Part shown: positions 1 through 64,000 of the stretch, one piece after another | Numbering within the stretch: position 1 is the first letter of the stretch | Layout of the letters: the number at the start of each line of letters is the position of its first letter | Source of the DNA: Lagopus muta | Lineage: Eukaryota; Chordata; Aves; Galliformes; Phasianidae | Direction: 5' to 3' | DNA length: 64,000 nucleotides | NCBI RefSeq assembly: GCF_023343835.1 | Contig: NC_064438.1 | Coordinates: 59,482,578 to 59,546,577, forward strand | The notes under the pieces: model-generated | What the model saw: only the letters and a program-made list of their open reading frames with translations | Database searches by the model: none | What the model was told of the DNA's origin: nothing | Program-made: the position numbers and the translations under genes

Positions 1-20
1 TTATGACTGGAGCTGGGGAA

Positions 21-197
21 ATCCTAGAATCCTTGTAGAATGGCTTGGCATGGAAGGGAGCTCAAGGATCATCAAGCTCCAAGCCCCCTGCCTCAAGCTG
101 GGCTGCCAACCAAGCTCCACATTTAATGTGGGACTGGACCAGGCTGCCCAGGGCCCCATCCAGTCTGGCCTTGGACTCCTCCAGGGTTGGGGAAAAT
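21..197 (-). mobile_element. CR1 LINE 3'-end fragment, minus strand (unit 1)
   Basis: Reads as the reverse complement of a CR1 3' end. It begins with TAGAATCCTTGTAGAATGGC (degenerate CR1 terminal repeats), continues through GGACCAGGCTGCCCAGGGCC and ends near CTCCAGGGTTGG. It is 5' truncated, like most CR1 copies, and lies in the intron between the SH3 and RhoGAP exons, about 130 bases before the RhoGAP linker exon. Confidence 0.85.
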
Positions 198-324
198 CCA
201 TTTTGGTACGCACTTGCTCATCATGTTCTTCCCGTTTTGAGGTGCTCTGTAGAATGTGTTGTGCTCGGCCTCGTCCAACGGAGCCAAACCTGAGATGAAC
301 TGGTTTCTTCCTTTTGTTGTGCAG

Positions 325-3300
325 TGCCAAAGAAGCGCGGCAAGCTCCTCACCTTCCTTCGTTCCGTGGTGAAGGCCCGGCCAAAGCAACGGAAAGAGCG
401 GGAGGTGGAGAAGGAGAGGGTGTTCGGCCGTGACCTGGGAGAGCATCTTCTCCACTCTGGTCGTGATGGTAAGGGACAGCCCATTCCTGAGAGCCTCCCT
501 GTTTGGGAACCTAAAGCTGAAAGGGAGATGGTATCTAGCAAGGGGCAGGTTGATACCAATGGAGAAACGGGGAATGGGAGTTGACGACTGCAAGATAAAG
601 TGAGTAGGTGATGGCTGCAAGGGAAATGCTCCTAAGGGACAAGCACATTTGTATTTGCTTAAAGCAAAGCCTGTAAGCCAATCCCCTGGTAGCCTGAAAA
701 GAAAGGAAGCCTTTTGGCCAAAGAGAGTGTCCTGCCTCAGTTTCCCAGCTCCTTCCGGGCGTGAGATTTTCCACCTCCATTCCCGTGGGAGCTGTGATGG
801 GACTTGCAATGTCTGCGGCTTCCCCGGAATTACTTTCTCCAGGCTGATTCCTAGGTCCTGGCATTTCTGGAACGCAAGGAACACATCTCTGTCCAGTTTC
901 CTCAGCAGCTCCTGCAGAGGTGTCTCTGACAGCTGTCCCCTTCAAGGAAGAACACAGCAGTAGCCTGGCTGGGCTTAGTGGATGGGATGTGGCGGGAGCG
1001 TAGCCTGAGCCAGGACTTGAATGAGGAGCTCCAGTAACCGCCGGCACGTGTTCTTTAGTCCCCCAGGTCCTCCAGAGCTGCGCCGAGTTCATCGAGCAGC
1101 ATGGCGTGGTGCAGGGGATATACCGCCTGTCCGGCGTGGCGTCCAACGTCCAGAGACTGCGGTAAGAGTGCTGCGACTGACAGACACAGCTGCCAGCAGG
1201 GGCACGTGCCCTGTTGCGGGTGTTCAGAGGCCTGTGGGCCATGCCTTAGCACCAAGAGAAGGTCTCCTTTGGGAACATCCCATCCAGCGCGGCTGACGTG
1301 GTGCTGGTGGCCGAGTGGTTGTGTTCTCCTGTACATCAGGAAGCCCTTCCAACTCTTGATTGCATTGGGTGTGGCTTTTGACTTGCTTTCCTCTTTCTCA
1401 ACCGTTTTCGTGTCCTTCTCTGCAGCCAGGAATTTGAGTCTGAGCAGGTTCCTGAGCTAACCGTCCGCGACGTTCACAGCGCGAGCTCCCTCTGCAAAAT
1501 GTACTTCAGGGAGCTCCCGACCCCCCTGCTGACCGACCAGCTGTACGACAAGTTCTCGGTAAGCACAAGGCAACGCCTTTCCTTTCCCTCTTCCCTGGGC
1601 CTCTTGGGAGATGGCTGCAGCAGTGCCCCAGCTCTGAGGCCCTTCTTCTGTTAGCGCCACGGGGTTTACTCGCATGTCTTTGCCACATCCTGCATTGTGC
1701 TGATGCCACTTCTGGTGGCCCCAGGAGGTGGTTATTTCCATATTCACAATGCTTACGAGAATTCCTGTGTTGTTTGTTTGTTTGTTTGTTTTTTGCTATT
1801 CCCAACTATTTCTGGAACGGGAAGGGAATTAATAGCCAAGGGTACTTGGAGATGAATGCCCCCTGCGAGGAGCTGAGCTGCCCAACCAGGCTGTAAACCG
1901 GCCCGGTGCTTGGACTCCTTGGCCGTGGTGGCACCAGCTGCGTGCCGCTATGTTCGCCAGTTGCCTCTGGGGAGGCCTAAAATCTTTCTCAGTGCTGACC
2001 AGCAGCGCGCTGTGCCCATGGTTCCCGACCCTGCGGCAGGTATCTCGCCTGATTTGTGTCTCAATCCCTTTCTGCCCTTTTCCAGGATGCTGTTGGTGCC
2101 ACTACGGAGGAGGAGCGGCTGGTCAGAATGCGGGACGTCATCCAGCAGCTGCCCGCTCCTCACTACAGGTCAGTGCTGCCCTCAGCCTGCTGAGCTCAGC
2201 CCTGCTGCACTTCAGAGGGCAAAGTGCAATTCCAGGCTTTGTCTCACGCGAGCAACGGGATGCCTGGGTGTGCTGAAACACTGCATGGGGTTAATTGATG
2301 GGGTCAGTTCCTGGGCACGGGGCACGCTTGGTGCAGCTGATGGCTGTGGCTGTGCTGTGCTGGTGCTGGGTTCTGCAGCGTGGCACTTGGTCAAGTTGGA
2401 TCTACTTCATCTTCAGCATCAGTAGCACTAATAACAACTAGTGTGAATTGAGGTTTGCTTTGTGAGTCGCAGCACGGGATGCTGGCTGGTGCTGAACATT
2501 TGCCTCTCTTGTTTCCCAGGACCTTGGCGTATCTGATGAGACACTTGGCCTGTCTGGCTGGGCACTGCTCCACCACAAACATGCATGCGAAGAACTTAGC
2601 AATTGTGTGGGCTCCAAACCTCTTAAGGTAAACTTCTTTTTCCGTTTCAACAGAACGCTTACATCTGTTCTCCAGTAGAATAAAGCAGTCCTCCCTTCTG
2701 CACCACATGTGCTCTTCTCCTGTAAAATCTGCAGTGAGTGGCTGACAGCAGAGCAGGAGCCTGGACTGTTCTCCAACCCCACGTGGGCACAATTTCTAGC
2801 TGAGCATTGCTGCTCTCTTGTTTAGATGGGACTGGTGTGTCCTTGATCAGCCAGGAGAACTTCTTCAGTGGCATCACTGCCCACTGCGGAAGTCTCCAGA
2901 GAACAAATGTGACAGCTTTGGGCTGCAGTAATTCAGACCTGGGGAAGCGATCTTGGCTGAATGACTTCTAAAACCTGCCTTTTCTACAGATCACAGCAGA
3001 GCGAGTCTGCCTGCGCCAGTGGGAGAGCTGCCTGCACGGAACTGCAGACGCAGTCGTCTGTGGTGGAATTCATCATCGACCACACAGACGTCCTCTTCTG
3101 CTCCACATCTGGACCTGACATGGCAGGTGGAGCAGGTGAGTGTCTTCCTCCATTAGCTTTATCTTGGTCCTGTCACCGTCACTATGATGTCTTGGAAGCA
3201 GGTGAAGCTTGGTGAAAGTGTGGCAGCGAAGTTTTCTGAGTTCACCATACCTGCTTTCTAGGGTTTTTGTTTGCCTGTTTCGATACAGGGAGCTGCTCTT

Positions 3301-5246
3301 AATTATGACTTCATCCTTTGCCATAGACACATGTCTGAGCACATGGTTATTTTGAGCTGCTCTTCTTGCAGCGGCTTGGTTAAGCAAGTCTGAGGAAAAC
3401 ACAGCAGCTCCCCCGGACCTGTGATGGCTGTGCTGCCGCTTTCTGATCCTGGCTCTCACCTGTGGTTTTCCCTTCCAGGGCACAGTTCTCTCTCAGGGCC
3501 CCAGTCTGTGCAGGCGTCTTCTCCTGCTACAGAGCTGCTTAGCCTGGAGGAGGCGCAGGCACGGAGGCGAGGCCACAGCAGCTCTCCTGTGGTTGTGACT
3601 GAGAGCAGGGACATAGAGGTGGAAGAAGGCCCCGCAGCTGTACGGGGGAAATTCCACACAGTCATCGACTTTCCATCTGAAAGGTAAAGAGGACTTTGTT
3701 TTCCAGCAGCTATCATCACTGTTTGGGTGGCTTGTGTTTGTTTTGTCCCCACTATTTCTAGTGCCTAAACTTGTGGAAACTAGATTTAATGAATGGTGCC
3801 TGAAGTGTTGCAGTGAATCTCCACTCCACTTTGGACTGTGAGATTGAACTAACATTCAGTTGCCTGACGGGCTGAGTTTAGCCACACAAGGCTGCCGTTC
3901 CTTCCTTGCTGGGCAGGCAGTCACGAGATGCACAAAGCCACGCTGACGTCTACCCTGGACTGTGCTGGATGTACCTGGAAACGTTGGGGTTTTCCGGACT
4001 TCACGGCCACGTGCCTGAAACCAATTCCTGTTCTCCTGAAAGCAGAGCTGTTGGTCAGACCTGCTGGCACGAGAAACTAGACATGGCAGTGAGATGGGCC
4101 GATGAGCTGTCAGAGTCAGAGTCAGAGATGCTTTTGACGTTCCTTTATGGCTGTGCAATTCCTCAGCCAGCAGTTATGCCTGCCAACTCAGTCAAAGCCT
4201 TCCTTTAGGCGCTGTCCTGTACAGGTGTGTGGAGCCTGTGGACCTCACGTGCTCTGCATCTTGCTTGACACAGTTGAGGGGAATTTAGCCAGCAAGACTT
4301 CAGGGCTGAGCTGTAGGAATGGAACCATCCCTCCACTGCTTGAAATGGAGCGAGTTTCTAAGCTGTGTTTCAGCAGGAACCAGGCGGTGCTAGGAACAAG
4401 CAACTGTTGGCAAGAGCTCAGTGCAGGTCTTCCCTCACTCTGCTCCACGCACGGCTCACACCATTCCCTGTTTTCTCTCTCCAGACCAAGTCCGCCCACC
4501 ATGATAAAGGAATCACCAGCTGGCTGTTGGTGTTCCTGCTTCAGCCTGGGAAAACCATCTTCTGGGGCCAAACGCCAGCCACAGCGCCGTCCCAGGGAGC
4601 CCTCAGAAATAGAAATCGTAGTGCTGGCAGGTAAGGGTGCAAATCCAGCTTTCAACGCCTTGCTTTTCAGCAACATAGAATTCTTGCTGTCAGTGGGCTT
4701 GTATCTACTTCCAGCGTTCCAACCCATACCTGACACCTTTAGTTCACCTGTGATCAAGAACCACTTTTGTAATTCAGCTTGTGAAAGTTTGGCACTAACC
4801 CCTGTGTATCCTTCCTAGATGAACTGAGCCCTTGTCCACCCAGAAGAGCCGGAGCAAGTAGCGAAGCTGGGCTGTGTGCTTCCCCCAGTGGAGAGCTCTT
4901 GGGAAGCACAAATGGCTGCGGTTCACATGACAGCCTTCCATGTAACAACAGTGATGGAGAGAGGGAGCTCATCCAAGTTCAAGCCCTCATTTCTCCCGGC
5001 TCTGCTGAAGATGCTGACCTGAGCCCGCCAGGCACCACAGTCACCAGCCTGGACTGTGACCTGGCGCCTTTGCAGTGCAGCCCAGCCCAAGCACAGTCCG
5101 AGTGCCCCGACAGCAGCACCTCTGTGCAGGAGCAGGTCGGCATCACCGATGAGAAGCCGTGCCTCTTGGAGGGGGGCTTAGAATCAGGCCCTCAGTCCCA
5201 GGCACCGTGCAGCGGATCTGACAGCTCTGAGCCACTCTCTCCGTGA
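325..5246 (+). CDS. ARHGAP32-like RhoGAP, copy A (3' part; 5' exons lie outside the window)
   Basis: This is the RhoGAP and C-terminal part of an ARHGAP32 (RICS)-like GTPase activator, which speeds GTP hydrolysis on Rho-family GTPases (family knowledge: Cdc42, Rac, RhoA). Exons, all with AG acceptors and GT donors and matching phases: 325-468, 1059-1161, 1426-1558, 2086-2168, 2520-2627, 2990-3135, 3479-3683, 4485-4630 and 4819-5246, with TGA at 5244. The first exon encodes the basic linker (VPKKRGKLLTFLR) and VFGRDLGEHL. The second holds the arginine finger, GIYRLSG, with Arg at 1124-1126. The third has LCKMYFRELP and the fifth NLAIVWAPNLLR, so the catalytic and GTPase-contact residues are kept. 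Relative to human ARHGAP32, four residues are missing after Thr at 1460-1462. The last exons match the ARHGAP32 post-GAP region (GKFHTVIDFP, SAEDADLSPP) and stop after SSEPLSP, where ARHGAP32 continues for over a thousand residues. ARHGAP33 is a worse match because it lacks these tail motifs. Confidence 0.93.
1769..1794 (+). repeat. (TTTG)n microsatellite in the RhoGAP intron
   Basis: Short TTTG run ending in a T tract. Its length is the same in every unit, with counterparts at about 16510, 31245, 45986 and 60727. Microsatellites change length quickly, so equal length fits very recent common origin of the units. Confidence 0.85.
4109..4126 (+). repeat. GTCAGA hexamer run, three copies (variable between units)
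   Basis: Three tandem GTCAGA hexamers in the intron between exons 3479-3683 and 4485-4630. Unit 2 has only two (18850-18861), the sole length difference between units that I found. Units 3, 4 and 5 have three. Confidence 0.95.
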
Positions 5247-5318
5247 CCTTTCCATCCAAGAGAGGACGATTCCCACCTTTACCTGGACCTCTCACGCCCT
5301 TCTGTCCTTTCCTTTAAT

Positions 5319-5324
5319 AATAAA
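5319..5324 (+). terminator. Poly(A) signal AATAAA, copy A
   Basis: The hexamer lies 73 bases after the TGA at 5244-5246, in an AATAATAAAAG context. A GT-rich stretch (TGCCTGTGGAG) lies about 30 bases further on. It gives a very short 3' UTR and supports the early stop as the real end of the transcript. Confidence 0.8.
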
Positions 5325-5675
5325 AGCACACTCGTGCTCACTCAACACCTTGAATGCCTGTGGAGTCTTCATTCACGAGGACTGGGATGAATGCAACACA
5401 CAGCAAGGCACCTCAGCTTGCAACGCTGAGGCTGCAGGGTGCATGAAGCAGAGCTCCAGGTTTGTTCCCGTTTTGTCTGGCTTCGGGATGTCTGCAGCTC
5501 CCATTTGGTACGGTAGCAAATAATCTCTAGCATCCTGGATGCTGCTTGTGATAACCCCAAGCTTCCTGGCGGTGGCTTTGTGATGCCCTTCAGGGCTTTT
5601 TGATGCACTGTGATGCCTTGGCTGCTCCCTAACACCTTTCTCCTCCAGCTGCGTCCATTCCTGGCTCTCAATCTC

Positions 5676-5935
5676 CCAATCTGCAGTTGGCTGAGCCACC
5701 ACACGTGGGAGCGGTCGTTGGGAGCCGGCTGTTGGAGGCGCGGCAGACCTCGGTGGCAGCCGTTGCTGTCCTGGCAGCAGTGAGGCGGAAGCTGAGGCAC
5801 GACGGGAGCGAGTGCTGAGGGCAGCTCTGCCGGAGGTGTGCGGGAGAGCGGTCGCGGGACAGGGAGAGGAGCCCTGCGCGGCCCCAAGCAAGGGGAGATG
5901 GCCGAAAAGGGGAGCACGGGAAGTTCCGCCCGTGG
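5676..5935 (+). promoter_or_regulatory. CpG-rich candidate promoter and first exon (unit 1)
   Basis: About 23 CpG pairs fall in some 240 bases of high GC, close to the number expected without CpG decay, while the rest of the unit is CpG-poor. A CCAAT box (5676-5680) and a CACGTG E-box (5702-5707) sit at its upstream edge. Near its end an ATG at 5898 in good context opens MAEKGSTGSSARG and runs straight into a GTGAGA donor at 5936, as a first coding exon would. It begins about 350 bases after the previous copy's poly(A) signal, so it is well placed to start the next gene copy. The phase does not fit the 8760 exon in its ATG frame, so its coding role is uncertain. Confidence 0.5.
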
Positions 5936-5949
5936 GTGAGAAGGGAGGT

Positions 5950-6141
5950 CTTTATGGTGAGGATGGCGCAGCTCTGGAACAGGCTGCCCAGGGAGGCTGT
6001 GGCTTCTCCTTGTCTGGAGATATTCCACAACCGCCTGGACGCCCACCTGCGCAGCCTGCTGTAGGAGCCTGTTTTGCAGGGGTGTTGGACTCAGTGATCC
6101 CTGGAGGTCCTTCCAGGCCCAGTTCTGTGCTTCTGTGATGT
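5950..6141 (+). mobile_element. CR1 LINE 3'-end fragment, plus strand (unit 1)
   Basis: Carries the end of the CR1 reverse-transcriptase ORF (LWNRLPREAV-like coding in CTCTGGAACAGGCTGCCCAG) followed by the 3' UTR (GTTGGACTCAGTGATCCCTG). It is 5' truncated and its terminal repeats are degraded (TTCTGTGCTTCTGTGATG). It begins immediately after the CpG-rich segment. Confidence 0.85.
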
Positions 6142-6907
6142 TACTCCTTGCTTCTTGCAGCAGCACGGTGTTTCAGAAGAGAGAAAAGCATGGCGGGCAT
6201 CAACTGGATTTCTGTGGCTGGTAAAGCTGTGCCGAGAACTGGGCTGACTGCTGCCCCTGGAAATGTGTGCAAAGTCTGCAGAGGCAGAGGAATGACTTTT
6301 CTCTCAAAAGTTGAGCTTGTCTAAGGTAGGTCACTGCTGGGAGAGCTTCTGCTTTAAAGCATCAAGTTGTATAAGTAAGGTAATTTAAAAAGCAAGCTTG
6401 CCAGTTCTTTTTTACCTAAGTGATTTTTTAGCACGGGAAGGTTGGAGAGGCTTTTTGCGAACCGAAGATGGAGGGAGGAAAAGCAAGTGAAAGGCACGCT
6501 GTGCACAGCCAGCACACAGCACCTGCACCATTGCCCTGCACAAAGGAGGAGCAGCTCAGCAAGCTTGGCCTGGGCCATGGAAGGGAGCGTGCAAACGTCT
6601 GGAGCAGCCCCAGATGGGCTGGTTCTGCAGGTTGCTGTCTGCTGCTGTTTTCTCACATCCTGTTGCTCGGGGGTGGATTTGTTCATGTTCAGAGCTAGCA
6701 GGAAGCTCGCAAAGCCCTTTGTTTCAGCTGTCCCAAGGCTTTGATCCCTGGCTGCTGGGATGGGGCGTTTGAGGAGTGATGCCTGTGCTGTTGTCCAGCC
6801 AAGCTTTGGGGGTGAGTCTCGTTACCAGGGCATGTCTGACAGGACTGAGGGTGGGGGACCGGGCCAGTGGCACTTTGCTCTCGGTCTCGGTGTTTGTCTT
6901 TGCTCAG

Positions 6908-7050
6908 AAGGGCAGGTGGTGAACCTCACGAGCCAAAGCCTGCAGATGGGGTTTGCGGAGAAAGAGGTCCTGCAGGCCTTGTGTGGCAGCCACGGAGCTG
7001 GAGCGAGGCTGCGTCAGTGTAAAAGCCCAGCAATGCACAGAGGTGTGAAG
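6908..7050 (+). other. Exon-like open segment of unknown identity (unit 1)
   Basis: TCTTTGCTCAG precedes and GTGAGC follows a 143-base segment that is open in one frame and ends at a codon boundary. It reads EGQVVNLTSQ, then SLQMGFAEKEVLQAL, and ends MHRGVK. The MGF followed by a leucine-rich helix recalls a UBA fold, but the match is short and I cannot name a family. It lies between two CR1 fragments and before the N-terminal exons, so it could be an alternative 5' exon of the RhoGAP gene, an exon of another gene caught in the unit, or chance. Confidence 0.3.
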
Positions 7051-7239
7051 GTGAGCTGTGGGCTCGAGTATCACAAGAGGGGGTGTGCATGGTCAGGGCT
7101 TGGATGCTTCTGTGTGTTTGAAGTGACTGTGGGGTAGTTAGCACTGCTGGGTGAGCTTGAGTGTCTGGAACAAGTGTGACGTGTCTTCCAGTTGCACGCT
7201 GTGTTCTTCCTGTTGTGTTGAGCTCTTGAGCTCCAGCCC

Positions 7240-7843
7240 TAAGTGAGGATGCAAGCGCTACTGCAGAAGGAACGGGTTGAGATTGGAAATGCAGTGCAAA
7301 GGGCTGGAGACAGCAGGAGCTGGGATGTGATCATCCCCCTGTACTCAGCTCTGGTGAGTCCTCACCTTGAGTGCTGTGTTCAGTTCTGGGTCCCTGACTA
7401 CAAGAAGGACACTGAATCCCCGAGATATTGCCAGAGAAGAGCAGTGAAGCTGTGAAGAGTGTAGAGCACCAGTCTCATGGGGAGCGGCTGGCTGAGAGAA
7501 CTGGGATTATTTAGCCTGGAGAAGAGGAGGCTCAGGGCAGACCTTATCCCTCTCTACAATGAGCTGAAGAGAGATTATGTCGAGGTGGGGGTCGTCTTAT
7601 TCTCCCGTGTCAGTAGCGATAGGACTGGGGGGAACGGCCTCAAGTTGCACGGGGGGAGATTGAGGCTGGACGTTAAGAAACGCTTCTCCACAGGAGTGCC
7701 CAGGGAGGTGATGGAGTTACTGTCCCTGCAGGTGTTCAAGAAACGTTAGACGTGGCTTAGTGGGGAATATTGGTGGTAGGTGGACGGTTGGACTGGATGA
7801 TCTTGGAGATCTTTTGCAAGCTTGCTAATTCTATGATTCTGTG
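7240..7843 (+). mobile_element. CR1 LINE, longer 3' fragment, plus strand (unit 1)
   Basis: About 600 bases of the C-terminal part of the CR1 ORF2 plus its 3' end. Recognisable pieces are [18 protein letters not shown], then [14 protein letters not shown] and LIPLYNELK, then [10 protein letters not shown] and VPREVMELL. The 3' end is GGACTGGATGATCTTGGAGA, then ATTCTATGATTCTGTGA, the CR1 terminal repeats. The coding part is split by a stop after the first piece (near 7455) and the element is 5' truncated, so it is inactive. The left edge is approximate. Unit 4 has one private base change in this element (51552). Confidence 0.92.
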
Positions 7844-8726
7844 AAAGGCATCTGCTGGGCGAGTGCTTTGGTGGGTGAGCATCCGGCTGCTGGACAGCAG
7901 GCAGCTGTTGTCTGTGCAGACAGCCACATCCATGGGGAGTGGAGGCTTTTTCACCTTAGCCTTGTCTTTCATGTCTCACGTGCAGTAAGTCCTGTTGTTA
8001 CACACAGCATCTTGGGGGCAACCTTGATTTCTGCAGCCCCGAGCTTTGTGGCACGAGAGCTCTCGGCCATGCTTCTCCCTGTGATGTGTGACCGTATGGA
8101 AGGCCTCGCAGAAGCCTGGGTAGGTGATGGCAGTCGCTCCTCCTTTCCCCAGCGATGCTGGAAATAGCGTGGAACGGGACGGGGGGACATCCCAGCCGTG
8201 GGTTCCTCTCAGCAGGACTGAGCGGCTGTTCTGATCCTCGTGTTTGAACTTGAGGGAATCTGATGCTGAGTAGAGAAATGAGGGGCTTGTTCATAAAGAA
8301 GAAAAGACTGTGTCGCATCTTGTGGTGCAGGATGTTCTCCGAACTGCTGCTAACAGTGCCCAGGATGCTCCCTTTTTGATGGGGAGAGGTTTAGCAGGGA
8401 TTTCTTAAATGAAAATAGTTTGTCGTGTAATTTCCTTTTCATCGACCTTTCATGCTACTTCTTGATAAGTTATCTTTGGATTCTCAATTAATATTTATTA
8501 TTGAAGAGAACTGAAGAGAATACGTACGCACCCTGCGCCTTCATCTGCACCGAGAATCTTCTGAACATCTTTGCACCGTTTCTTCTTGGCCCTGAGATGA
8601 AGCTGTGTGCAATATAGGCTTGGATGCATTTTCAGTCCGGTGCAGGACACGTAACCCTCATCTGAGTTGTCGTGCTGACAAGAACAACACAGTAGCAAAT
8701 TTTACAGGGTTGCGTGCTTTACTTTA

Positions 8727-8758
8727 CTTTTTTTTTTTTTTTTTTTTCCCCCCCTCCA
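8727..8758 (+). repeat. Poly-T/poly-C tract serving as polypyrimidine tract
   Basis: A run of over 20 T followed by C bases, ending at the AG acceptor of the exon at 8760. It appears the same length in units 1 to 4. Such homopolymers are slippage-prone, so equal length again argues for recent copying. Confidence 0.8.
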
Positions 8759-8759
8759 G

Positions 8760-8886
8760 TCATAATCATGGAACCACAGAAGCGTTACCCAGGCAGAAGG
8801 AGCCTTTGTCACCTGGACTTCCTACCAACGACACAGGCAGTGGAAGTCAGCATCCCAAGCATCCATGAAACCCCTGCACAGGACTG
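8760..8886 (+). CDS. Probable N-terminal exon of the ARHGAP32-like gene (unit 1)
   Basis: A strong pyrimidine tract (8727-8758) ends in an AG acceptor, and GTGAGA follows as donor. An ATG at 8768 opens 39 codons plus two bases, from MEPQKRYPG to HETPAQD. Joined to the next candidate exon, it reads PAQDWKKSL. The end resembles human ARHGAP32 around HPRERPDWEETL, with the DW at the exon junction conserved. The match is short, so identity is moderate. If it is used, this is the natural start codon, but the frame cannot be followed with confidence through the region between 9804 and 12321. Confidence 0.5.
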
Positions 8887-9697
8887 GTGAGAGTTACCCT
8901 GGCGCCGTCCTTTGGCAATCTCAGGTCTCTCTGTAAGCTCCCAAGCTGTGTCGTAACTCCTCCCGTGGTGCTGACTCAGCTCTCCCAGTCTTTTGTGTGG
9001 GAGAGCTGGAGTTGAACTCCTTCCTGCTTCCTGCCTCTGTCCTCCCTGCTTTGCCCATGGCCCACTGAGCCTCCATCCTTGTTAGGTGTCTTGAATTACT
9101 GAGTTGCTTAAGGATTGGGTGGACCAATTGAATTCTTAGCGATGTCTCTAGGTCCACGTGTGCACAAAAGCACACTCTGATGCAGTCAGTGTAATGATGA
9201 ACACACGCCTTGTTTCCTTTAGCCCGTATTTTTAGTTCAGGAGAACAGATTTCTGGAATGATGTTCAGCTTAGCACCACAATCCCCTTGCCGCCCCCCAT
9301 TGCAGTCACTCACGAGGGCTTGAGATCCACAGGGAGGAAGTATTGCCGATAATTACAATCCATGGTTTTAAAACTGATCTAATCTATGGTGTATGATATG
9401 AATGGTCCTGGTGAATGATGTGGTAAGGCATCCCAGCAATTTTCAACAGGAATACTTCAAGGCAGCTTTTCAAGGTTTCTTTGAGAACTCTCCAAGTCTC
9501 CAGGAATTTTAAGCGCCAAGGTTTCTTAGCCTTCCGAATGGCAGTGTTTCTATCTAAGCTGGCAGCCTTTAAGCCCAAACCCAAACCGAAGCTTGCTCAT
9601 CTCAGTGGAGGTACCTTAGCTATATTCTAATGGTGTGTGCAAAATAAGTTTCATGTTCACGAGTCCTTTCTGACTCACTACGTGTTTGATTGCACAG

Positions 9698-9804
9698 GAA
9701 GAAAAGCTTGATGTCTGTGCCAAGGGAGACGTACACCGCACTTGCGCTGCCTGGACGATGTGGAAACTGGAAATTCTGGGGTGTGCTGAAGCATGCCCTC
9801 TCAG
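9698..9804 (+). CDS. Probable second N-terminal exon (unit 1)
   Basis: Acceptor TTGCACAG and donor GTCAGT bound 107 bases. The phase fits the preceding exon (two bases in, one base out) and the frame is open for 35 codons: KKSLMSVPRETYTALALPG and on to LKHALS. It lies where ARHGAP32 has its segment between DWEETL and the PX domain. Similarity is weak apart from the first residues and a shared Cys-Gly. It could instead be a non-coding or decayed exon. Confidence 0.4.
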
Positions 9805-10912
9805 GTCAGTCTAAGCATACATAGAGTAGACCTGTCCAACAAAACAGGGAATAGACAGTTAAACCCATTCTGTTGGGAAATACTCTGTCCTTCTAAGTAC
9901 CTTTAGAACGTGAGTTTCTTCAATTAATTACTCAACTCATTTGCTTTTCCTGAATGATCCTAAGTTCTTTTCTCAGGCTACATCTGCACTCTGCTCAGTC
10001 CAAGGAGAATCCCTGCCTGCAGATGCAATGACACAGCATGGCTCACAACCACATTTTTCATTGCTTACTCTTATGGTAGCTGCCATCCATGTCCACCCTG
10101 CGTATTCTTAGAGCTCTTCTGGAGTCCATGGGGCAGACTTATGGTTGAACTGAAGGGAATTTTTTCATATTGCTCTAGCTCCAGATGATTATCCCTAGTA
10201 TCATTATATTATAAAAAAAAAAGGCGTTTTGAAGTAGTGTGATATATATTCTGTGCCTCAGAATGTGGCACGTGTGGCATGAGAGAGTTTTGAGGCCACG
10301 AGGACTGCCCAGACAGCGTGAGAACTGTAAGGGCAGAGAGCTATAGGTGATGCAGCGCTGTTTGTGGCACCCGCAGGAAGCGGTAGCTGGAACAAAATAT
10401 GGCCAGAAGAGTGATCAGATTGTGTTTGGTAAGGAACTATTTCATTAGTTGTAGAAGTTTGACAAAATGTATATTCAGGATGATGATCAGCGTGCCAGGT
10501 GCTGGGACCATGCCGAAAGAGAAATGGTGTGAAAACGTCGGTGCAATTTGCAATATATCCCCTTCCACATAGCCCTCAGATCCATGCTGCAACTGCATCC
10601 AAAGCAACCCAGAGCCCTGTGCTTGTTGTACCCGGAGCTATCGGTGCCAGGAGTTGCTGCTGTGTTTGCGAGGACGTTGTGTCAGCAGTGTGCCGTCAGT
10701 GGGGTTGTTTGATGACAATGAAACAGCTGAATGGTGTACCTCAAGACTAAGAAAAAAGATGGTAGTGGTGACTGTGTGTCTAGGTATAGATAGCTTGATA
10801 GAGATCTATAGGACTCCAGTGTGGATTGTACATAGGCCCTGCGCTGCAAGGTACACTGTTGGGAAGCAATGTCCATCTGCCCGAGGGCAGGAAGGCCCTG
10901 CAGAGGGACGGC

Positions 10913-10968: not shown

Positions 10969-11099
10969 GAGCAAGCGCTGGGTCCTGCGCTGTGGTCATG
11001 AAACCGCATGGCAGCTTCTGCAGGATTGGGCTGAGGTAGAATTCCAACCGCCCGCTGATTCTAGAATGTTGGGTGCTGTGTTGGAATCTTCTGGTCCTG

Positions 11100-50152: not shown

Positions 50153-50166
50153 GTGAGAAGGGAGGT

Positions 50167-53103: not shown

Positions 53104-53914
53104 GTGAGAGTTACCCTGGCGCCGTCCTTTGGCAATCTCAGGTCTCTCTGTAAGCTCCCAAGCTGTGTCGTAACTCCTCCCGTGGTGCTGACTCAGCTCT
53201 CCCAGTCTTTTGTGTGGGAGAGCTGGAGTTGAACTCCTTCCTGCTTCCTGCCTCTGTCCTCCCTGCTTTGCCCATGGCCCACTGAGCCTCCATCCTTGTT
53301 AGGTGTCTTGAATTACTGAGTTGCTTAAGGATTGGGTGGACCAATTGAATTCTTAGCGATGTCTCTAGGTCCACGTGTGCACAAAAGCACACTCTGATGC
53401 AGTCAGTGTAATGATGAACACACGCCTTGTTTCCTTTAGCCCGTATTTTTAGTTCAGGAGAACAGATTTCTGGAATGATGTTCAGCTTAGCACCACAATC
53501 CCCTTGCCGCCCCCCATTGCAGTCACTCACGAGGGCTTGAGATCCACAGGGAGGAAGTATTGCCGATAATTACAATCCATGGTTTTAAAACTGATCTAAT
53601 CTATGGTGTATGATATGAATGGTCCTGGTGAATGATGTGGTAAGGCATCCCAGCAATTTTCAACAGGAATACTTCAAGGCAGCTTTTCAAGGTTTCTTTG
53701 AGAACTCTCCAAGTCTCCAGGAATTTTAAGCGCCAAGGTTTCTTAGCCTTCCGAATGGCAGTGTTTCTATCTAAGCTGGCAGCCTTTAAGCCCAAACCCA
53801 AACCGAAGCTTGCTCATCTCAGTGGAGGTACCTTAGCTATATTCTAATGGTGTGTGCAAAATAAGTTTCATGTTCACGAGTCCTTTCTGACTCACTACGT
53901 GTTTGATTGCACAG

Positions 53915-54021
53915 GAAGAAAAGCTTGATGTCTGTGCCAAGGGAGACGTACACCGCACTTGCGCTGCCTGGACGATGTGGAAACTGGAAATTCTGGGGTG
54001 TGCTGAAGCATGCCCTCTCAG
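53915..54021 (+). CDS. Probable second N-terminal exon, unit 4 copy
   Basis: Counterpart of 9698-9804 with the same splice signals and phase. It would belong to gene copy E. Confidence 0.38.
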
Positions 54022-55316
54022 GTCAGTCTAAGCATACATAGAGTAGACCTGTCCAACAAAACAGGGAATAGACAGTTAAACCCATTCTGTTGGGAAATAC
54101 TCTGTCCTTCTAAGTACCTTTAGAACGTGAGTTTCTTCAATTAATTACTCAACTCATTTGCTTTTCCTGAATGATCCTAAGTTCTTTTCTCAGGCTACAT
54201 CTGCACTCTGCTCAGTCCAAGGAGAATCCCTGCCTGCAGATGCAATGACACAGCATGGCTCACAACCACATTTTTCATTGCTTACTCTTATGGTAGCTGC
54301 CATCCATGTCCACCCTGCGTATTCTTAGAGCTCTTCTGGAGTCCATGGGGCAGACTTATGGTTGAACTGAAGGGAATTTTTTCATATTGCTCTAGCTCCA
54401 GATGATTATCCCTAGTATCATTATATTATAAAAAAAAAAGGCGTTTTGAAGTAGTGTGATATATATTCTGTGCCTCAGAATGTGGCACGTGTGGCATGAG
54501 AGAGTTTTGAGGCCACGAGGACTGCCCAGACAGCGTGAGAACTGTAAGGGCAGAGAGCTATAGGTGATGCAGCGCTGTTTGTGGCACCCGCAGGAAGCGG
54601 TAGCTGGAACAAAATATGGCCAGAAGAGTGATCAGATTGTGTTTGGTAAGGAACTATTTCATTAGTTGTAGAAGTTTGACAAAATGTATATTCAGGATGA
54701 TGATCAGCGTGCCAGGTGCTGGGACCATGCCGAAAGAGAAATGGTGTGAAAACGTCGGTGCAATTTGCAATATATCCCCTTCCACATAGCCCTCAGATCC
54801 ATGCTGCAACTGCATCCAAAGCAACCCAGAGCCCTGTGCTTGTTGTACCCGGAGCTATCGGTGCCAGGAGTTGCTGCTGTGTTTGCGAGGACGTTGTGTC
54901 AGCAGTGTGCCGTCAGTGGGGTTGTTTGATGACAATGAAACAGCTGAATGGTGTACCTCAAGACTAAGAAAAAAGATGGTAGTGGTGACTGTGTGTCTAG
55001 GTATAGATAGCTTGATAGAGATCTATAGGACTCCAGTGTGGATTGTACATAGGCCCTGCGCTGCAAGGTACACTGTTGGGAAGCAATGTCCATCTGCCCG
55101 AGGGCAGGAAGGCCCTGCAGAGGGACGGCCTGAGGCCAGTCGTACCAGGCTGCACAGCTGAGGCCAGTCGTAGGAGGCTGCACAGGAGCAAGCGCTGGGT
55201 CCTGCGCTGTGGTCATGAAACCGCATGGCAGCTTCTGCAGGATTGGGCTGAGGTAGAATTCCAACCGCCCGCTGATTCTAGAATGTTGGGTGCTGTGTTG
55301 GAATCTTCTGGTCCTG

Positions 55317-55537
55317 TGACATGGTCTTGCCTCCCCACCCTGTTGTCATGGCGGAGCAGCCTGGTGGCCCTTAGTGATGTCACAAGCGGCTGGAATGAGG
55401 GGAGGAGCAGTGCGTGCTGCGTCCCTTCATTGGAGCGCTTGAGCTCTGCGTGAGTAGCTCGCTTGTTGCCCTTGTGCAGCGACTGAGTGCCTTCGTTTTC
55501 ACCCCTTGTGTCTTGCGCAGCATCTTGTAGGTAAGCT
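55317..55537 (+). promoter_or_regulatory. Possible internal promoter, unit 4 copy
   Basis: Counterpart of 11100-11320 with the CRE-like and CCAAT sites unchanged. Confidence 0.28.
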
Positions 55538-55780
55538 GAGACAGGGCGTGGGATAGAGGGATGGGATGTGAGCTGTTGAGAACTGCTGGCTGGTGGAGCT
55601 CCTAGCAGCTCATACTGCTTACTCTTGTCCATCAGACGTAACTTTCAGCCAGTACCTGCATTCCCAAGCGATCCACAAAGATGGCATTTGTCCCATGGTT
55701 TTTCCCTTGTCATCTTTGCTCCATTGTGCAAGCTCACAGACCTGTTCCTTCTCTCTCCTCTACCCGCTCCCTTGGTGCAG

Positions 55781-55866
55781 CTTTCGCTCGTGGAAGAACA
55801 GAGCAAAGTGACAAGAAACAGCTGCGAGTTCAAGGAATTGTCTACCTTGTTCTGATCTCCTGCCAG
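55781..55866 (+). pseudogene. Remnant PX exon, unit 4 copy
   Basis: Same 86-base exon and frame change as in unit 1. Confidence 0.8.
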
Positions 55867-56537
55867 GTACGTGCCACGCTTTGTCCCCCCACGTGGTTGA
55901 CCAGCACTGTGTCGCACCATGTTTGGTAACACAGCCTCACCCAGCTTTGATGGGACACTGGTCCCGTGTGGGCTTTTTCCCTTCCCCTGCAGCTCCGCCC
56001 TCAGAAGGATGCTGTGTGTGGTGCTGTGACCAGCTGGTCTGAAGGAAACCAATCCCTTAGGCAAAGAGTCCAAGGCCCAGTTTGTGCCGAGCTGCAGAGC
56101 GTGACCCAAGGTCACAAGCACGCACGCTTGGGCTGTGTGAGTGTGCGCGGCAGCTGTAGGGAGCACAGCAGAGATGCAATCAAGGAAATGTCCTTGATGT
56201 GCGGGGCTGCAGCAGGTGCCGGTGGTGAGGCTGCTGGGAGCCGTGGCCGGGGAGCAGATGCACCTGCAGCAATGATTCCTCTCACTGCCCTGCTGCTGCG
56301 CTGTCAGAGCACCCTGGGTGAATGCATCTGCTGCTTTGTGCCAGTCCCCATCTGCTAGCAGAGGGACAGCTGCTTGGTCAAATGCTGCCTAATGGGCTGT
56401 CCCATTTGAACGGAGTGAACAGAGTGGTTGCTTCTAGAGCACCTGCCTGTGCCAGAGGATAGCCAAGGGTAGTTCTCCGGTAGTCTCTCAATACTGTGGT
56501 GTGTGAAGAGAGAAAATATGAGCGTGTTTCTCTTCAG

Positions 56538-59500
56538 TTCCAGCTTGTCGTGCCTGCTGTGATGGGCGTCGCGTGCAGCGAGATCAGCTGTGGGCCTGAC
56601 ATGACACGGATGGAGGTAGAGTACGGAGCTCTGATTGGTCTTTGTTCCCTGATTTGAGCCAGCAGAGTGAGCTGCAGATGTGCTCTCCCGCTTTTCAAGA
56701 GAGAGCGAATCCTTGCGGCTCTATCAGTGTCACTGAAAAGCTGCCTTAAAGGCTTTCTTTCCTTGCTGCGGGCATGTTCTTAGCCTTGCCGTTCCTTCTT
56801 GTGTGCCCATGATAAGGACCGAGTGCATTTCCTGCAGCTTTCTCTGCTGACGTGCTCCTCAGCCTGAAATCCTCCTCGTTTGCCCTCAGCTCCTCACCAT
56901 GGCCTGTGCTCTCTGTTTCAGGCTGAGAACAACGGGAAGCCCCTGCTGGTCCGTGAAGAGTCATCTCTTAATATCCCAGCTATTGCTGCTGCCCACGTTA
57001 TTAAGAGATACGTTGCCCAGGCACCGGGTGAACTCTCCTTGGAGGTAAGCAGTTAAGGGTGTTCCTTGTTGTCCTGTACAGAAGAGTATAACATGTGAAG
57101 CTATCAGGAATATTCTCAGACAGCTTCAGAGTGTTTGGTGAGGTGAAGCCCAGCAGATGCGGTTCCAGATTAGACTTGCACTGGGTTGGATGCAGGGAGG
57201 AGTTCAGCCATCTCTAAACTATGGCTCTATTTGGCATTGGAATCTTGTGATCAAAGAGCTACTGCCCAGTGTGGTAGCCTGGTCTCTGAGCAATGGCAGA
57301 GCAGTGTATGGAGTGTGCAGACCTGTTCAGGATCAGTTCTGCTGACTTATGCCTGCGGTTTAATTGGAGCTCTCCCTTTGGCAAAGAGCCTGCTGCTTTT
57401 GAGAACCATTTCATACTGAACAGCTGAATTCTGTGTGTTGTGTATTGCAGTGACTCTTCTACCTCCACGTTCGGTTGTACGACTGCAAATGCCTGAAGAG
57501 CTGCACTGGTGCAATGGCTCTCAAGCTTGACGATATTGGGCAGTGCAGAAGAATGCAGTCATTTGAGCTGCGCTTTCCTCCCAGCCGTGCTGAAGCTGGG
57601 ATTGACGTTGCAATCTCTTGCAGGTGGGAGACCTCGTGTGCGTCATCGATATGCCGCCTCAGGAGCTGAGCCCCCGCTGGAGAGGCAAGCACGGCTTTCA
57701 GGTAGGCACAAGCTTCAGACGTGAGAGCGCAACTTGGGTCGAGGCAGGAATCTCAGCTTAGAGCTGCCCTGCCTGCACAGCATGGCTCCACATGGAAAAT
57801 GGTTTCCCTGTGTTGGTGTCAGGGGACTTTGCCTTTTGCTGTGGGCTTAGGCCAGAGCTGAAAGTTGGTCTTTGTAGGAAACTGCCTCCTCAATTAACTT
57901 AGAAAGAAGAGCCCTCACAGCATGCATCAGGTCACGGCCACTGAACCGCACCTTTGGAAATGCAGCAGCTAGGACACATGTTTCAGTGTCTCTGAGCACT
58001 TGTGCTTGCACCCATGCGGAAGGTGAAGTCAGTGTCTTTTAGGAAGTCGCTGCCTGTCAGCCGAGATGAGGCAGGGTAACAGAGCCTCTGTGTGCTTGCT
58101 GCTGCTGCTGGCTGCAGAAGGCTGGGTAGCTCAGAGCTGGAGATGGCAGCTGCATCTCAGTCAGCAAGCAGAAAGTTCATAGGCTGTGCTAACTCAGATC
58201 TAGCTGCATCAATCTATCATAATATATAGCTTCTGTATGAAGTCTTTCCCTTCGGGCACACTTGATATTTAGGGGTGCATAGCACACTTGTCCTTTCCCC
58301 GCTCCATACACAGTTTTATGGATATTTGCCTGCCAATTTGGAATAATTATTAATTTTAAGCAGGCCATTTTTTTGTTGGATTGTCTTACGGAGCATCCGG
58401 CAGGCACGTTATGAGGAAAATGTGATGTTTGAACAGTTCAGGCCTGAGAAACGCTGCCTTCAGTATCACACCTCTCTTCTTCTTCTTGTTACAGGTTGGA
58501 TTTTTCCCTGGTGAGTGCGTGGAGCTCATTAACGGAAAAATCCCGGAGTCTCTCATCAATTCGGTGCCAAAGCCAGGTACGGATGATCCATTTGATGGTG
58601 CAGGGAAGCAAAATGGAGTCTTTTTTGGGTGTGTTCCATGTTTAATACCTCCCTTATCCTTCCCACGTTATCCTGTGTGCTGATGATCCTTCATGCATAG
58701 CACGGGGCGTATGGCTGGTGTTTGTAGGCAGTGAGAATGAGGGAAGGCAAAGGTAGTTCTCCTGCAAGTCAGTACGAGGCTGAGAACAGCCAGCGTCCCT
58801 GGTGGACAGATAGAGGTCTGGTTGTGCTAGTGCTTCTGTGCTTGATCAGAACGTGGCTTTTCAAGAGGGTCCTTAATGCGCAGGTTGAGCAAGCTAAGCA
58901 AGAGGAGTGCATTAAACTCCATCAGAACGTGCAGAGATTTGGCCCAGTCCTCCTGTGTTTATGACTGGAGCTGGGGAAATCCTAGAATCCTTGTAGAATG
59001 GCTTGGCATGGAAGGGAGCTCAAGGATCATCAAGCTCCAAGCCCCCTGCCTCAAGCTGGGCTGCCAACCAAGCTCCACATTTAATGTGGGACTGGACCAG
59101 GCTGCCCAGGGCCCCATCCAGTCTGGCCTTGGACTCCTCCAGGGTTGGGGAAAATCCATTTTGGTACGCACTTGCTCATCATGTTCTTCCCGTTTTGAGG
59201 TGCTCTGTAGAATGTGTTGTGCTCGGCCTCGTCCAACGGAGCCAAACCTGAGATGAACTGGTTTCTTCCTTTTGTTGTGCAGTGCCAAAGAAGCGCGGCA
59301 AGCTCCTCACCTTCCTTCGTTCCGTGGTGAAGGCCCGGCCAAAGCAACGGAAAGAGCGGGAGGTGGAGAAGGAGAGGGTGTTCGGCCGTGACCTGGGAGA
59401 GCATCTTCTCCACTCTGGTCGTGATGGTAAGGGACAGCCCATTCCTGAGAGCCTCCCTGTTTGGGAACCTAAAGCTGAAAGGGAGATGGTATCTAGCAAG

Positions 59501-62500
59501 GGGCAGGTTGATACCAATGGAGAAACGGGGAATGGGAGTTGACGACTGAAAGATAAAGTGAGTAGGTGATGGCTGCAAGGGAAATGCTCCTAAGGGACAA
59601 GCACATTTGTATTTGCTTAAAGCAAAGCCTGTAAGCCAATCCCCTGGTAGCCTGAAAAGAAAGGAAGCCTTTTGGCCAAAGAGAGTGTCCTGCCTCAGTT
59701 TCCCAGCTCCTTCCGGGCGTGAGATTTTCCACCTCCATTCCCGTGGGAGCTGTGATGGGACTTGCAATGTCTGCGGCTTCCCCGGAATTACTTTCTCCAG
59801 GCTGATTCCTAGGTCCTGGCATTTCTGGAACGCAAGGAACACATCTCTGTCCAGTTTCCTCAGCAGCTCCTGCAGAGGTGTCTCTGACAGCTGTCCCCTT
59901 CAAGGAAGAACACAGCAGTAGCCTGGCTGGGCTTAGTGGATGGGATGTGGCGGGAGCGTAGCCTGAGCCAGGACTTGAATGAGGAGCTCCAGTAACCGCC
60001 GGCACGTGTTCTTTAGTCCCCCAGGTCCTCCAGAGCTGCGCCGAGTTCATCGAGCAGCATGGCGTGGTGCAGGGGATATACCGCCTGTCCGGCGTGGCGT
60101 CCAACGTCCAGAGACTGCGGTAAGAGTGCTGCGACTGACAGACACAGCTGCCAGCAGGGGCACGTGCCCTGTTGCGGGTGTTCAGAGGCCTGTGGGCCAT
60201 GCCTTAGCACCAAGAGAAGGTCTCCTTTGGGAACATCCCATCCAGCGCGGCTGACGTGGTGCTGGTGGCCGAGTGGTTGTGTTCTCCTGTACATCAGGAA
60301 GCCCTTCCAACTCTTGATTGCATTGGGTGTGGCTTTTGACTTGCTTTCCTCTTTCTCAACCGTTTTCGTGTCCTTCTCTGCAGCCAGGAATTTGAGTCTG
60401 AGCAGGTTCCTGAGCTAACCGTCCGCGACGTTCACAGCGCGAGCTCCCTCTGCAAAATGTACTTCAGGGAGCTCCCGACCCCCCTGCTGACCGACCAGCT
60501 GTACGACAAGTTCTCGGTAAGCACAAGGCAACGCCTTTCCTTTCCCTCTTCCCTGGGCCTCTTGGGAGATGGCTGCAGCAGTGCCCCAGCTCTGAGGCCC
60601 TTCTTCTGTTAGCGCCACGGGGTTTACTCGCATGTCTTTGCCACATCCTGCATTGTGCTGATGCCACTTCTGGTGGCCCCAGGAGGTGGTTATTTCCATA
60701 TTCACAATGCTTACGAGAATTCCTGTGTTGTTTGTTTGTTTGTTTGTTTTTTGCTATTCCCAACTATTTCTGGAACGGGAAGGGAATTAATAGCCAAGGG
60801 TACTTGGAGATGAATGCCCCCTGCGAGGAGCTGAGCTGCCCAACCAGGCTGTAAACCGGCCCGGTGCTTGGACTCCTTGGCCGTGGTGGCACCAGCTGCG
60901 TGCCGCTATGTTCGCCAGTTGCCTCTGGGGAGGCCTAAAATCTTTCTCAGTGCTGACCAGCAGCGCGCTGTGCCCATGGTTCCCGACCCTGCGGCAGGTA
61001 TCTCGCCTGATTTGTGTCTCAATCCCTTTCTGCCCTTTTCCAGGATGCTGTTGGTGCCACTACGGAGGAGGAGCGGCTGGTCAGAATGCGGGACGTCATC
61101 CAGCAGCTGCCCGCTCCTCACTACAGGTCAGTGCTGCCCTCAGCCTGCTGAGCTCAGCCCTGCTGCACTTCAGAGGGCAAAGTGCAATTCCAGGCTTTGT
61201 CTCACGCGAGCAACGGGATGCCTGGGTGTGCTGAAACACTGCATGGGGTTAATTGATGGGGTCAGTTCCTGGGCACGGGGCACGCTTGGTGCAGCTGATG
61301 GCTGTGGCTGTGCTGTGCTGGTGCTGGGTTCTGCAGCGTGGCACTTGGTCAAGTTGGATCTACTTCATCTTCAGCATCAGTAGCACTAATAACAACTAGT
61401 GTGAATTGAGGTTTGCTTTGTGAGTCGCAGCACGGGATGCTGGCTGGTGCTGAACATTTGCCTCTCTTGTTTCCCAGGACCTTGGCGTATCTGATGAGAC
61501 ACTTGGCCTGTCTGGCTGGGCACTGCTCCACCACAAACATGCATGCGAAGAACTTAGCAATTGTGTGGGCTCCAAACCTCTTAAGGTAAACTTCTTTTTC
61601 CGTTTCAACAGAACGCTTACATCTGTTCTCCAGTAGAATAAAGCAGTCCTCCCTTCTGCACCACATGTGCTCTTCTCCTGTAAAATCTGCAGTGAGTGGC
61701 TGACAGCAGAGCAGGAGCCTGGACTGTTCTCCAACCCCACGTGGGCACAATTTCTAGCTGAGCATTGCTGCTCTCTTGTTTAGATGGGACTGGTGTGTCC
61801 TTGATCAGCCAGGAGAACTTCTTCAGTGGCATCACTGCCCACTGCGGAAGTCTCCAGAGAACAAATGTGACAGCTTTGGGCTGCAGTAATTCAGACCTGG
61901 GGAAGCGATCTTGGCTGAATGACTTCTAAAACCTGCCTTTTCTACAGATCACAGCAGAGCGAGTCTGCCTGCGCCAGTGGGAGAGCTGCCTGCACGGAAC
62001 TGCAGACGCAGTCGTCTGTGGTGGAATTCATCATCGACCACACAGACGTCCTCTTCTGCTCCACATCTGGACCTGACATGGCAGGTGGAGCAGGTGAGTG
62101 TCTTCCTCCATTAGCTTTATCTTGGTCCTGTCACCGTCACTATGATGTCTTGGAAGCAGGTGAAGCTTGGTGAAAGTGTGGCAGCGAAGTTTTCTGAGTT
62201 CACCATACCTGCTTTCTAGGGTTTTTGTTTGCCTGTTTCGATACAGGGAGCTGCTCTTAATTATGACTTCATCCTTTGCCATAGACACATGTCTGAGCAC
62301 ATGGTTATTTTGAGCTGCTCTTCTTGCAGCGGCTTGGTTAAGCAAGTCTGAGGAAAACACAGCAGCTCCCCCGGACCTGTGATGGCTGTGCTGCCGCTTT
62401 CTGATCCTGGCTCTCACCTGTGGTTTTCCCTTCCAGGGCACAGTTCTCTCTCAGGGCCCCAGTCTGTGCAGGCGTCTTCTCCTGCTACAGAGCTGCTTAG

Positions 62501-64000
62501 CCTGGAGGAGGCGCAGGCACGGAGGCGAGGCCACAGCAGCTCTCCTGTGGTTGTGACTGAGAGCAGGGACATAGAGGTGGAAGAAGGCCCCGCAGCTGTA
62601 CGGGGGAAATTCCACACAGTCATCGACTTTCCATCTGAAAGGTAAAGAGGACTTTGTTTTCCAGCAGCTATCATCACTGTTTGGGTGGCTTGTGTTTGTT
62701 TTGTCCCCACTATTTCTAGTGCCTAAACTTGTGGAAACTAGATTTAATGAATGGTGCCTGAAGTGTTGCAGTGAATCTCCACTCCACTTTGGACTGTGAG
62801 ATTGAACTAACATTCAGTTGCCTGACGGGCTGAGTTTAGCCACACAAGGCTGCCGTTCCTTCCTTGCTGGGCAGGCAGTCACGAGATGCACAAAGCCACG
62901 CTGACGTCTACCCTGGACTGTGCTGGATGTACCTGGAAACGTTGGGGTTTTCCGGACTTCACGGCCACGTGCCTGAAACCAATTCCTGTTCTCCTGAAAG
63001 CAGAGCTGTTGGTCAGACCTGCTGGCACGAGAAACTAGACATGGCAGTGAGATGGGCCGATGAGCTGTCAGAGTCAGAGTCAGAGATGCTTTTGACGTTC
63101 CTTTATGGCTGTGCAATTCCTCAGCCAGCAGTTATGCCTGCCAACTCAGTCAAAGCCTTCCTTTAGGCGCTGTCCTGTACAGGTGTGTGGAGCCTGTGGA
63201 CCTCACGTGCTCTGCATCTTGCTTGACACAGTTGAGGGGAATTTAGCCAGCAAGACTTCAGGGCTGAGCTGTAGGAATGGAACCATCCCTCCACTGCTTG
63301 AAATGGAGCGAGTTTCTAAGCTGTGTTTCAGCAGGAACCAGGCGGTGCTAGGAACAAGCAACTGTTGGCAAGAGCTCAGTGCAGGTCTTCCCTCACTCTG
63401 CTCCACGCACGGCTCACACCATTCCCTGTTTTCTCTCTCCAGACCAAGTCCGCCCACCATGATAAAGGAATCACCAGCTGGCTGTTGGTGTTCCTGCTTC
63501 AGCCTGGGAAAACCATCTTCTGGGGCCAAACGCCAGCCACAGCGCCGTCCCAGGGAGCCCTCAGAAATAGAAATCGTAGTGCTGGCAGGTAAGGGTGCAA
63601 ATCCAGCTTTCAACGCCTTGCTTTTCAGCAACATAGAATTCTTGCTGTCAGTGGGCTTGTATCTACTTCCAGCGTTCCAACCCATACCTGACACCTTTAG
63701 TTCACCTGTGATCAAGAACCACTTTTGTAATTCAGCTTGTGAAAGTTTGGCACTAACCCCTGTGTATCCTTCCTAGATGAACTGAGCCCTTGTCCACCCA
63801 GAAGAGCCGGAGCAAGTAGCGAAGCTGGGCTGTGTGCTTCCCCCAGTGGAGAGCTCTTGGGAAGCACAAATGGCTGCGGTTCACATGACAGCCTTCCATG
63901 TAACAACAGTGATGGAGAGAGGGAGCTCATCCAAGTTCAAGCCCTCATTTCTCCCGGCTCTGCTGAAGATGCTGACCTGAGCCCGCCAGGCACCACAGTC
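56538..64000 (+). CDS. ARHGAP32-like RhoGAP, copy E (cut by the window end in the last exon)
   Basis: Spans units 4 and 5. Exons: 56538-56615 (ATG at 56562), 56922-57044, 57624-57701, 58495-58576, 59283-59426, 60017-60119, 60384-60516, 61044-61126, 61478-61585, 61948-62093, 62437-62641, 63443-63588 and 63777-64000. The last exon is cut at the window edge. By homology its stop would lie about 204 bases beyond. The frame is open throughout, and the exon sequence matches the other copies. The long SH3-proximal intron has the unit's private A at 57978. Confidence 0.9.
58959..64000 (+). repeat. Array unit 5, cut by the window end (5,042 bp)
   Basis: Covers the equivalent of unit positions 1-5042 and ends inside the last coding exon. 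It carries C at 63309, like units 1 and 4. Confidence 0.98.
58979..59155 (-). mobile_element. CR1 fragment, minus strand, unit 5 copy
   Basis: Counterpart of 21-197, inside the intron of gene copy E. Confidence 0.85.

Follow-up and report, generated by a model that had tools for sequence, protein, structure and literature searches.

The stretch analysed here, a 64,000-nucleotide window of the Lagopus muta (ptarmigan) contig NC_064438.1 (hereafter C9; positions 59,482,578–59,546,577 of assembly GCF_023343835.1), is filled by head-to-tail copies of a single ~14.7-kb unit, each carrying a RhoGAP-domain gene that descends from ARHGAP32 (RICS). The window is very probably the inner part of a subtelomeric gene-bearing macrosatellite, in which a DNA copy of ARHGAP32 would have been exchanged between chromosome ends, locally amplified and homogenised. 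Copies of the unit lie near several chromosome ends, keep their orientation relative to the telomere and, in their 3' halves, are related by position. Systems of this kind are already known. What the window offers is a bird case, seen in one assembly, of a protein-coding gene, seemingly under selection, that is carried by a chromosome-end macrosatellite on several chromosomes and the Z. It allows two questions to be tested: whether sex-chromosome amplicons originate in subtelomeric repeats, and at what rate gene copies spread from one chromosome end to another.

A near-identical array of gene-bearing units

Self-comparison of the window with 31-mers revealed none in inverted orientation and gave a leading offset of 14,741 (34,285 pairs), followed by 29,476, 44,217, 29,482, 14,735, 58,958 and 44,223. 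The window, which contains 0 ambiguous bases, comprises 4.34 copies of one unit on the + strand, and its full units measure 14,741, 14,735, 14,741 and 14,741 bp. Full units differ pairwise at 2–5 positions per ~14,735 aligned bases (99.97–99.99% identity), and the partial fifth unit differs from the others at 0–2 positions per ~5,040 bases. The initial annotation had proposed a near-identical, gene-bearing 14.74-kb tandem array with one RhoGAP gene per unit; self-comparison and unit alignment bear out the array, and the single gene is present as well, crossing the arbitrary unit boundary. The array also reaches past the window: at least 5.4 kb of another partial unit lie to its left, and on C9 six gene-bearing units span 59,483,677 to 59,558,999.

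Only eight places distinguish the units, none of them within the 12 modelled exons. Unit 2 is recognisable by a 6-bp deletion. Private differences occur in units 1, 2 and 4, whereas unit 3 has none of its own but has one in common with unit 2 and another with unit 4, the pattern expected from unequal crossing-over or conversion. Avian DNA accumulates 1–2 x 10^-9 substitutions per site per year, and at that rate the 1–3 x 10^-4 differences seen here would put the time when the units were last made alike at of the order of 10^5 years ago or less, on a clock that conversion resets.

An ARHGAP32 paralogue in each unit

The modelled gene has 12 exons (Table 1), whose internal boundaries all carry AG and GT, and a single 592-amino-acid frame ending after exon I; its first exon and start codon were not found, and the frame lacks its 5' end. 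Every exon is identical among its complete copies in the window (four or five copies each). The spliced protein contains an SH3 domain (SH3_2, 26.5 bits against a cut-off of 21.8, with two further SH3 models under their cut-offs) followed by a RhoGAP domain (158.5 bits, cut-off 24.5). By itself, the open reading frame of exon S has no Pfam or PDB match, although the full spliced protein does match. Frame-by-frame Pfam scans of 5301–14302 on both strands found no domain, PX included, and also missed the SH3 domain, which is divided over three exons. An NCBIfam search returned nothing.

The long form of ARHGAP32 has a PX domain, and the protein has a long C-terminal tail. The unit protein lacks such a tail: its frame stops at 19981, which makes it a shortened ARHGAP32 paralogue. 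Exons G–I presumably resemble ARHGAP32. The protein also contains the motifs with arginine, lysine and asparagine that mark active RhoGAPs, the arginine-finger motif being GIYRLSG in exon B, and we infer that it is a GTPase-activating protein for Rho-family GTPases. A role for the gene in the germline would be a guess.

Both structure and genome comparison agree with the RICS/ARHGAP32 derivation that the initial annotation had suggested. The best solved relative is the RICS RhoGAP domain (3iug, E = 3e-93), with the runner-up at 4.7e-26, and a parent locus lies on contig C25, where pieces of 70–84% DNA identity, introns included, extend from 1,151,001 (the edge of the compared sequence) to 1,209,358. 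Exons K1 and A–F were compared with the parent as translations, K2 and S as DNA positions. This 58-kb parental stretch is represented by less than 7 kb in the unit, which, with the intron homology, indicates a DNA-level duplication that was shortened afterwards. Judged by sequence, the unit gene is an ARHGAP32/RICS paralogue derived from the C25 gene by DNA duplication, its introns kept but shortened. Homology to C25 continues upstream of K1 as far as unit position 11515, and more exons may lie there.

Copies of the unit at chromosome ends

C9 ends at 59,589,077, so that the window lies 42.5–106.5 kb from its end. The last kilobase (59,588,078–59,589,077, L069) ends in degenerate TTAGGG-like repeats, preceded by a ~300–400 bp terminal repeat common to many contig ends. 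Its first 800 bases match near many other contig ends, and the matches listed (of at least 381) fall on the − strand where coordinates are low and on the + strand where they are high. The shared terminal repeat and the TTAGGG-like repeats together indicate that the end of C9 is a chromosome end.

The assembly report describes bLagMut1 as built from HiFi and Hi-C data into 165 scaffolds, with 38 autosomes (18 unlocalised pieces), a W (one such piece) and a Z (PMC10320755). All four hits to the HIT-domain family fall on C59 and none on C57. C59 also carries three of five DM-domain hits, inside 91 kb, as expected of the Z, where birds carry the DMRT1-3 cluster. C57 would be the W, a reading from scaffold order only.

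Copies were sought across the genome with a 1,601-base probe from the window, and 40 of 45 candidates were scored, so that all counts are floors. At least 35 copies were found, 30 near-full and five partial, besides the parent and two matches of <100 bases. They are distributed as at least ten on C1, six on C9, five on C2, four on C57, three on C59 and one each on C7, C8, C10, C16, C17, C18 and C28. Setting aside the internal C57 copies and C28, 30 of the 35 lie within 0.22 Mb of an end, on ten contigs, Z included, and 26 of these 30 terminal copies, at eight chromosome ends, face the telomere. The three C59 copies are near the right end of that contig, one of them 99% identical to the probe, and related arrays occur on C1 and C2 at lower identity. 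Other probes from the unit reached the same chromosome ends, with exceptions, and a further diverged piece lies at C1:194.57 Mb.

Probable exchange between chromosome ends

For trees and distances we used 30 copies of ~4.6 kb, treating 5' and 3' halves apart, and the two halves tell different histories. In the 5' half, all six C9 copies form one clade (support 98), apart from the Z copies. In the 3' half, a single clade (support 97) unites the end-most copies of C9, C1, C2 and C59 with the C8 copy and one internal C1 copy, a grouping absent from the 5' half. The same contrast emerges from label changes on the trees, counted over 20 rows from C1, C2, C9 and C59 with L031 and L036 excluded. Chromosome labels change five times in the 5' half and eight times in the 3' half (least possible 3), while the "end-most" label changes four times and once, respectively (least possible 1). 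The four terminal copies that point away from the telomere form one 5'-half clade (support 100) and no such clade in the 3' half. They are also the most diverged, at 8.3–11.3% from the other 26 of the 30 copies compared. These four are the older copies, and the 26 telomere-pointing ones the younger.

Individual copies are mosaic. Over its first 2.4 kb, the distal C9 copy shows 0 differences from the array; beyond that point it alternates between the array type and the type seen in end-most copies of other chromosomes. In exon E, six residues occur in two versions, AGHCST and SANSSV; the latter is complete in 5 of the 30 copies, single ones on C1, C2, C8, C17 and C59, as if it had moved as a cassette.

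The simplest account of these patterns would be exchange of terminal blocks between ends, combined with gene conversion and local tandem amplification. An ARHGAP32 copy made at the DNA level would have been compacted to a 14.7-kb unit that retained the SH3 and RhoGAP coding region; blocks holding the unit would have been swapped between chromosome ends; at single ends the unit would have been amplified head to tail; and its copies would then have been homogenised via unequal crossing-over and gene conversion. Bird subtelomeres do lean to interchromosomal duplication, according to one study (PMC13431229).

Apparent selection on the coding region

Exons A–G were checked for integrity across the 30 copies, and exons K1, K2, S, H and I within the window. 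Exons A–G are intact in 23 of the 30 copies. The seven damaged copies comprise two on C57 (frameshift and stop), that on C18 (exon G absent, insertion in exon F), that on C17 (in-frame deletion) and three with damage in exon E (C2:153,212 and the C7 and C10 copies).

Outside CpG, variants among 22 of the 30 copies (L026, L027, L031, L033, L035, L036, L037 and L038 dropped) affect 24/623 nonsynonymous, 18/192 synonymous and 218/2,315 intron sites. The nonsynonymous rate is thus 0.41 of the synonymous rate and lies below that of introns (p = 2e-6, approximate because copies recombine), and the synonymous rate equals the intron rate. With CpG included the ratio is 0.31 in the same 22 copies, 0.25 in a set of 23 and 0.20 in a set of 17; we prefer the non-CpG figure because CpG inflates the synonymous sites. 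With amino-acid-changing variants depleted in this way, the unit gene seems to be under selection.

Several observations weigh against a selected gene carried on a subtelomeric macrosatellite. Four of the 30 terminal copies (C59:75,260,494, C2:153,212 and those on C7 and C10) point away from the telomere, the four C57 copies are internal, away from chromosome ends, and C28 has one partial copy. A spacer-only match of 83% lies far from contig ends at C3:75,084,697–75,085,912 (L068), implying an older, chromosome-internal relative of the spacer; a fragment lies away from the end at C59:73.95 Mb, and C7:1.03 Mb and C19:14.58 Mb each hold diverged sequence. The "end-most" label was picked after the distance matrix was seen and has no shuffle control, and clustering by chromosome persists in the 3' half when all 11 groups are counted (16 changes, where shuffling gives 19.8 on average and 2 of 200 shuffles go as low). 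Exon columns as a whole are barely less variable than intron columns (78/922 vs 257/2,437, p = 0.08). Finally, a set of six broken copies and one intact copy is also depleted in nonsynonymous variants (ratio 0.47, p = 0.0009).

The last points bear on the foremost alternative, that the array is a subtelomeric repeat with a decaying gene fragment whose protein has no function. Damage in 7 of 30 copies over exons A–G, the weak overall difference between exons and introns and the missing first exon and start codon all speak for decay. They are countered by the depletion of non-CpG nonsynonymous variants to 0.41 of the synonymous rate, under that of introns, and by the higher ratio of the broken-copy set (0.47 vs 0.25), depleted though it is. 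We consider decay unlikely, and favour a retained SH3–RhoGAP gene.

That the array or its size is an artefact of assembly, through false expansion or collapse, we judge quite improbable. The unit is close to HiFi read length, and adjacent units differ at few places, both of which would invite such errors. Against this, the eight difference places occur in ordered combinations, the six gene copies are evenly spaced, and the lower-identity arrays on C1 and C2 indicate that such an arrangement is not confined to a single contig.

The chicken Z amplicon and other known systems

Bellott and colleagues reportedly described, in 2010, a testis-expressed amplicon on the chicken Z that includes a RICS-derived gene. 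Another account gives the chicken Z a ~9-Mb region with testis-expressed amplicons (PMC9974502). The link to this amplicon drawn by the initial annotation stands in part: three related copies do sit close to the right-hand end of the Z contig, but the window itself is on C9 and the family occupies the ends of ten contigs. The two systems share a galliform host, tandem amplification and, reportedly for chicken, a RICS-derived gene, and the ptarmigan too has copies near its Z end. They differ in that the ptarmigan array is on C9, not Z, its family is spread over ten contigs, and its Z contig shows three copies rather than megabases. It is highly improbable that the array is simply the ptarmigan counterpart of the chicken amplicon, misplaced on C9 by a scaffolding error: RICS/ARHGAP32 parentage, the Z-end copies (one at 99% to the probe) and the 210 spanned gaps listed for the whole assembly in its report (PMC10320755) would fit, but in the 5' half the six C9 copies make up a clade that excludes the Z copies, other copies lie near the ends of nine contigs besides Z, and the C9 end bears the repeat common to other contig ends.

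A common origin of the ptarmigan family and the chicken amplicon is plausible. More tentatively, and with some doubt on our part, the chicken Z testis amplicon could be an outsized offshoot of an ARHGAP32 macrosatellite, older and subtelomeric in galliforms, that moved between autosomal and sex-linked ends and kept a selected SH3–RhoGAP gene; the ptarmigan would then retain the many-chromosome state, C9 being the site of the most recent burst.

A GCFC-domain match (42.7 bits, cut-off 28.1) lies at C2:174,907–175,047, ~20 kb beyond the C2 left-end copies. The GCFC-domain family includes C2orf3, which is said to be another gene of the chicken Z amplicon; the C2 match may be an ordinary gene.

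In humans, subtelomeric duplications and the D4Z4/DUX4 macrosatellite provide chromosome-end blocks and tandem units with an open frame. The ptarmigan family is alike in its gene-bearing blocks on several ends, its tandem units with an open frame and its presumed exchange between ends. Unlike D4Z4/DUX4, it carries another gene, its unit is larger and intron-bearing, and the Z takes part. Chicken dot chromosomes carry testis-expressed amplicons, and HINT1W lies on the W (PMC9974502). These are likewise protein-coding genes tandemly amplified in repeat-rich bird regions; the dot-chromosome amplicons are pericentromeric and HINT1W is on the W, whereas the ptarmigan family sits mostly in subtelomeres, spread over many chromosomes. 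Among the papers listed in a literature search, none names this ARHGAP32-derived family; most subscription journals were outside its coverage, so publication elsewhere is possible.

Feature coordinates and further observations

Table 1. Gene copies, exons of the modelled copy and repeat units in the 64,000-nucleotide window (window coordinates).
Feature	Position	Strand	Basis or remark
Gene copy, exons A–I; 5' exons left of window	325..5246	+	Exact exon matches
Complete modelled gene copy, K1–I	12705..19981	+	Gene model
Complete modelled gene copy	27440..34722	+	Exact exon matches
Complete modelled gene copy	42181..49463	+	Exact exon matches
Gene copy truncated by window end; K1–H complete	56922..64000	+	Exact exon matches
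Exon K1, first part of SH3	12705..12827	+	Parent piece on C25 (L071) translates alike
Exon K2, middle of SH3	13407..13484	+	DNA match to C25
Exon S, end of SH3	14278..14359	+	DNA match to C25
Exon A	15066..15209	+	Gene model; parent compared as translation
Exon B, RhoGAP, contains GIYRLSG	15800..15902	+	Parent and structure matches
Exon C, RhoGAP	16167..16299	+	Parent match
Exon D, RhoGAP	16827..16909	+	Parent match
Exon E, RhoGAP	17261..17368	+	Parent match
Exon F, end of RhoGAP	17731..17876	+	Parent match
Exon G	18220..18424	+	Frame and splice sites
Exon H	19220..19365	+	Frame and splice sites
Exon I with stop codon	19554..19981	+	Frame and acceptor site
Repeat unit 1	1..14741	+	Self-comparison; unit phase arbitrary, set at window start
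Repeat unit 2	14742..29476	+	14,735 bp, 6-bp deletion
Repeat unit 3	29477..44217	+	Unit alignment
Repeat unit 4	44218..58958	+	Unit alignment
Repeat unit 5, first 5,042 bp	58959..64000	+	Array extends past window end

Rfam gave no match in the window, and Tandem Repeats Finder, at periods <=500 bp, reported nothing but a 28-bp repeat in two copies, present once in each full unit. At 20442–20741 lies a 300-base step that is the only one in unit 2 with G+C 0.68 and CpG observed/expected 0.74; it sits downstream of the stop codon, recurs at the same place in other units, and is possibly a promoter island of the next gene copy. Open frames at 7465–7749 and 5819–6064 may be ends of CR1 retroelements.

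On C57, the copies at 5,820,095–5,855,655 and 6,291,038–6,326,598 (L026, L027, L066, L067) are arranged in an exact mirror, with paired coordinates that sum to 12,146,693, and L026 and L027 differ by 0.11%. Such a mirror might reflect a large palindrome on the presumed W, or else a false duplication that the assembly holds in inverted form.

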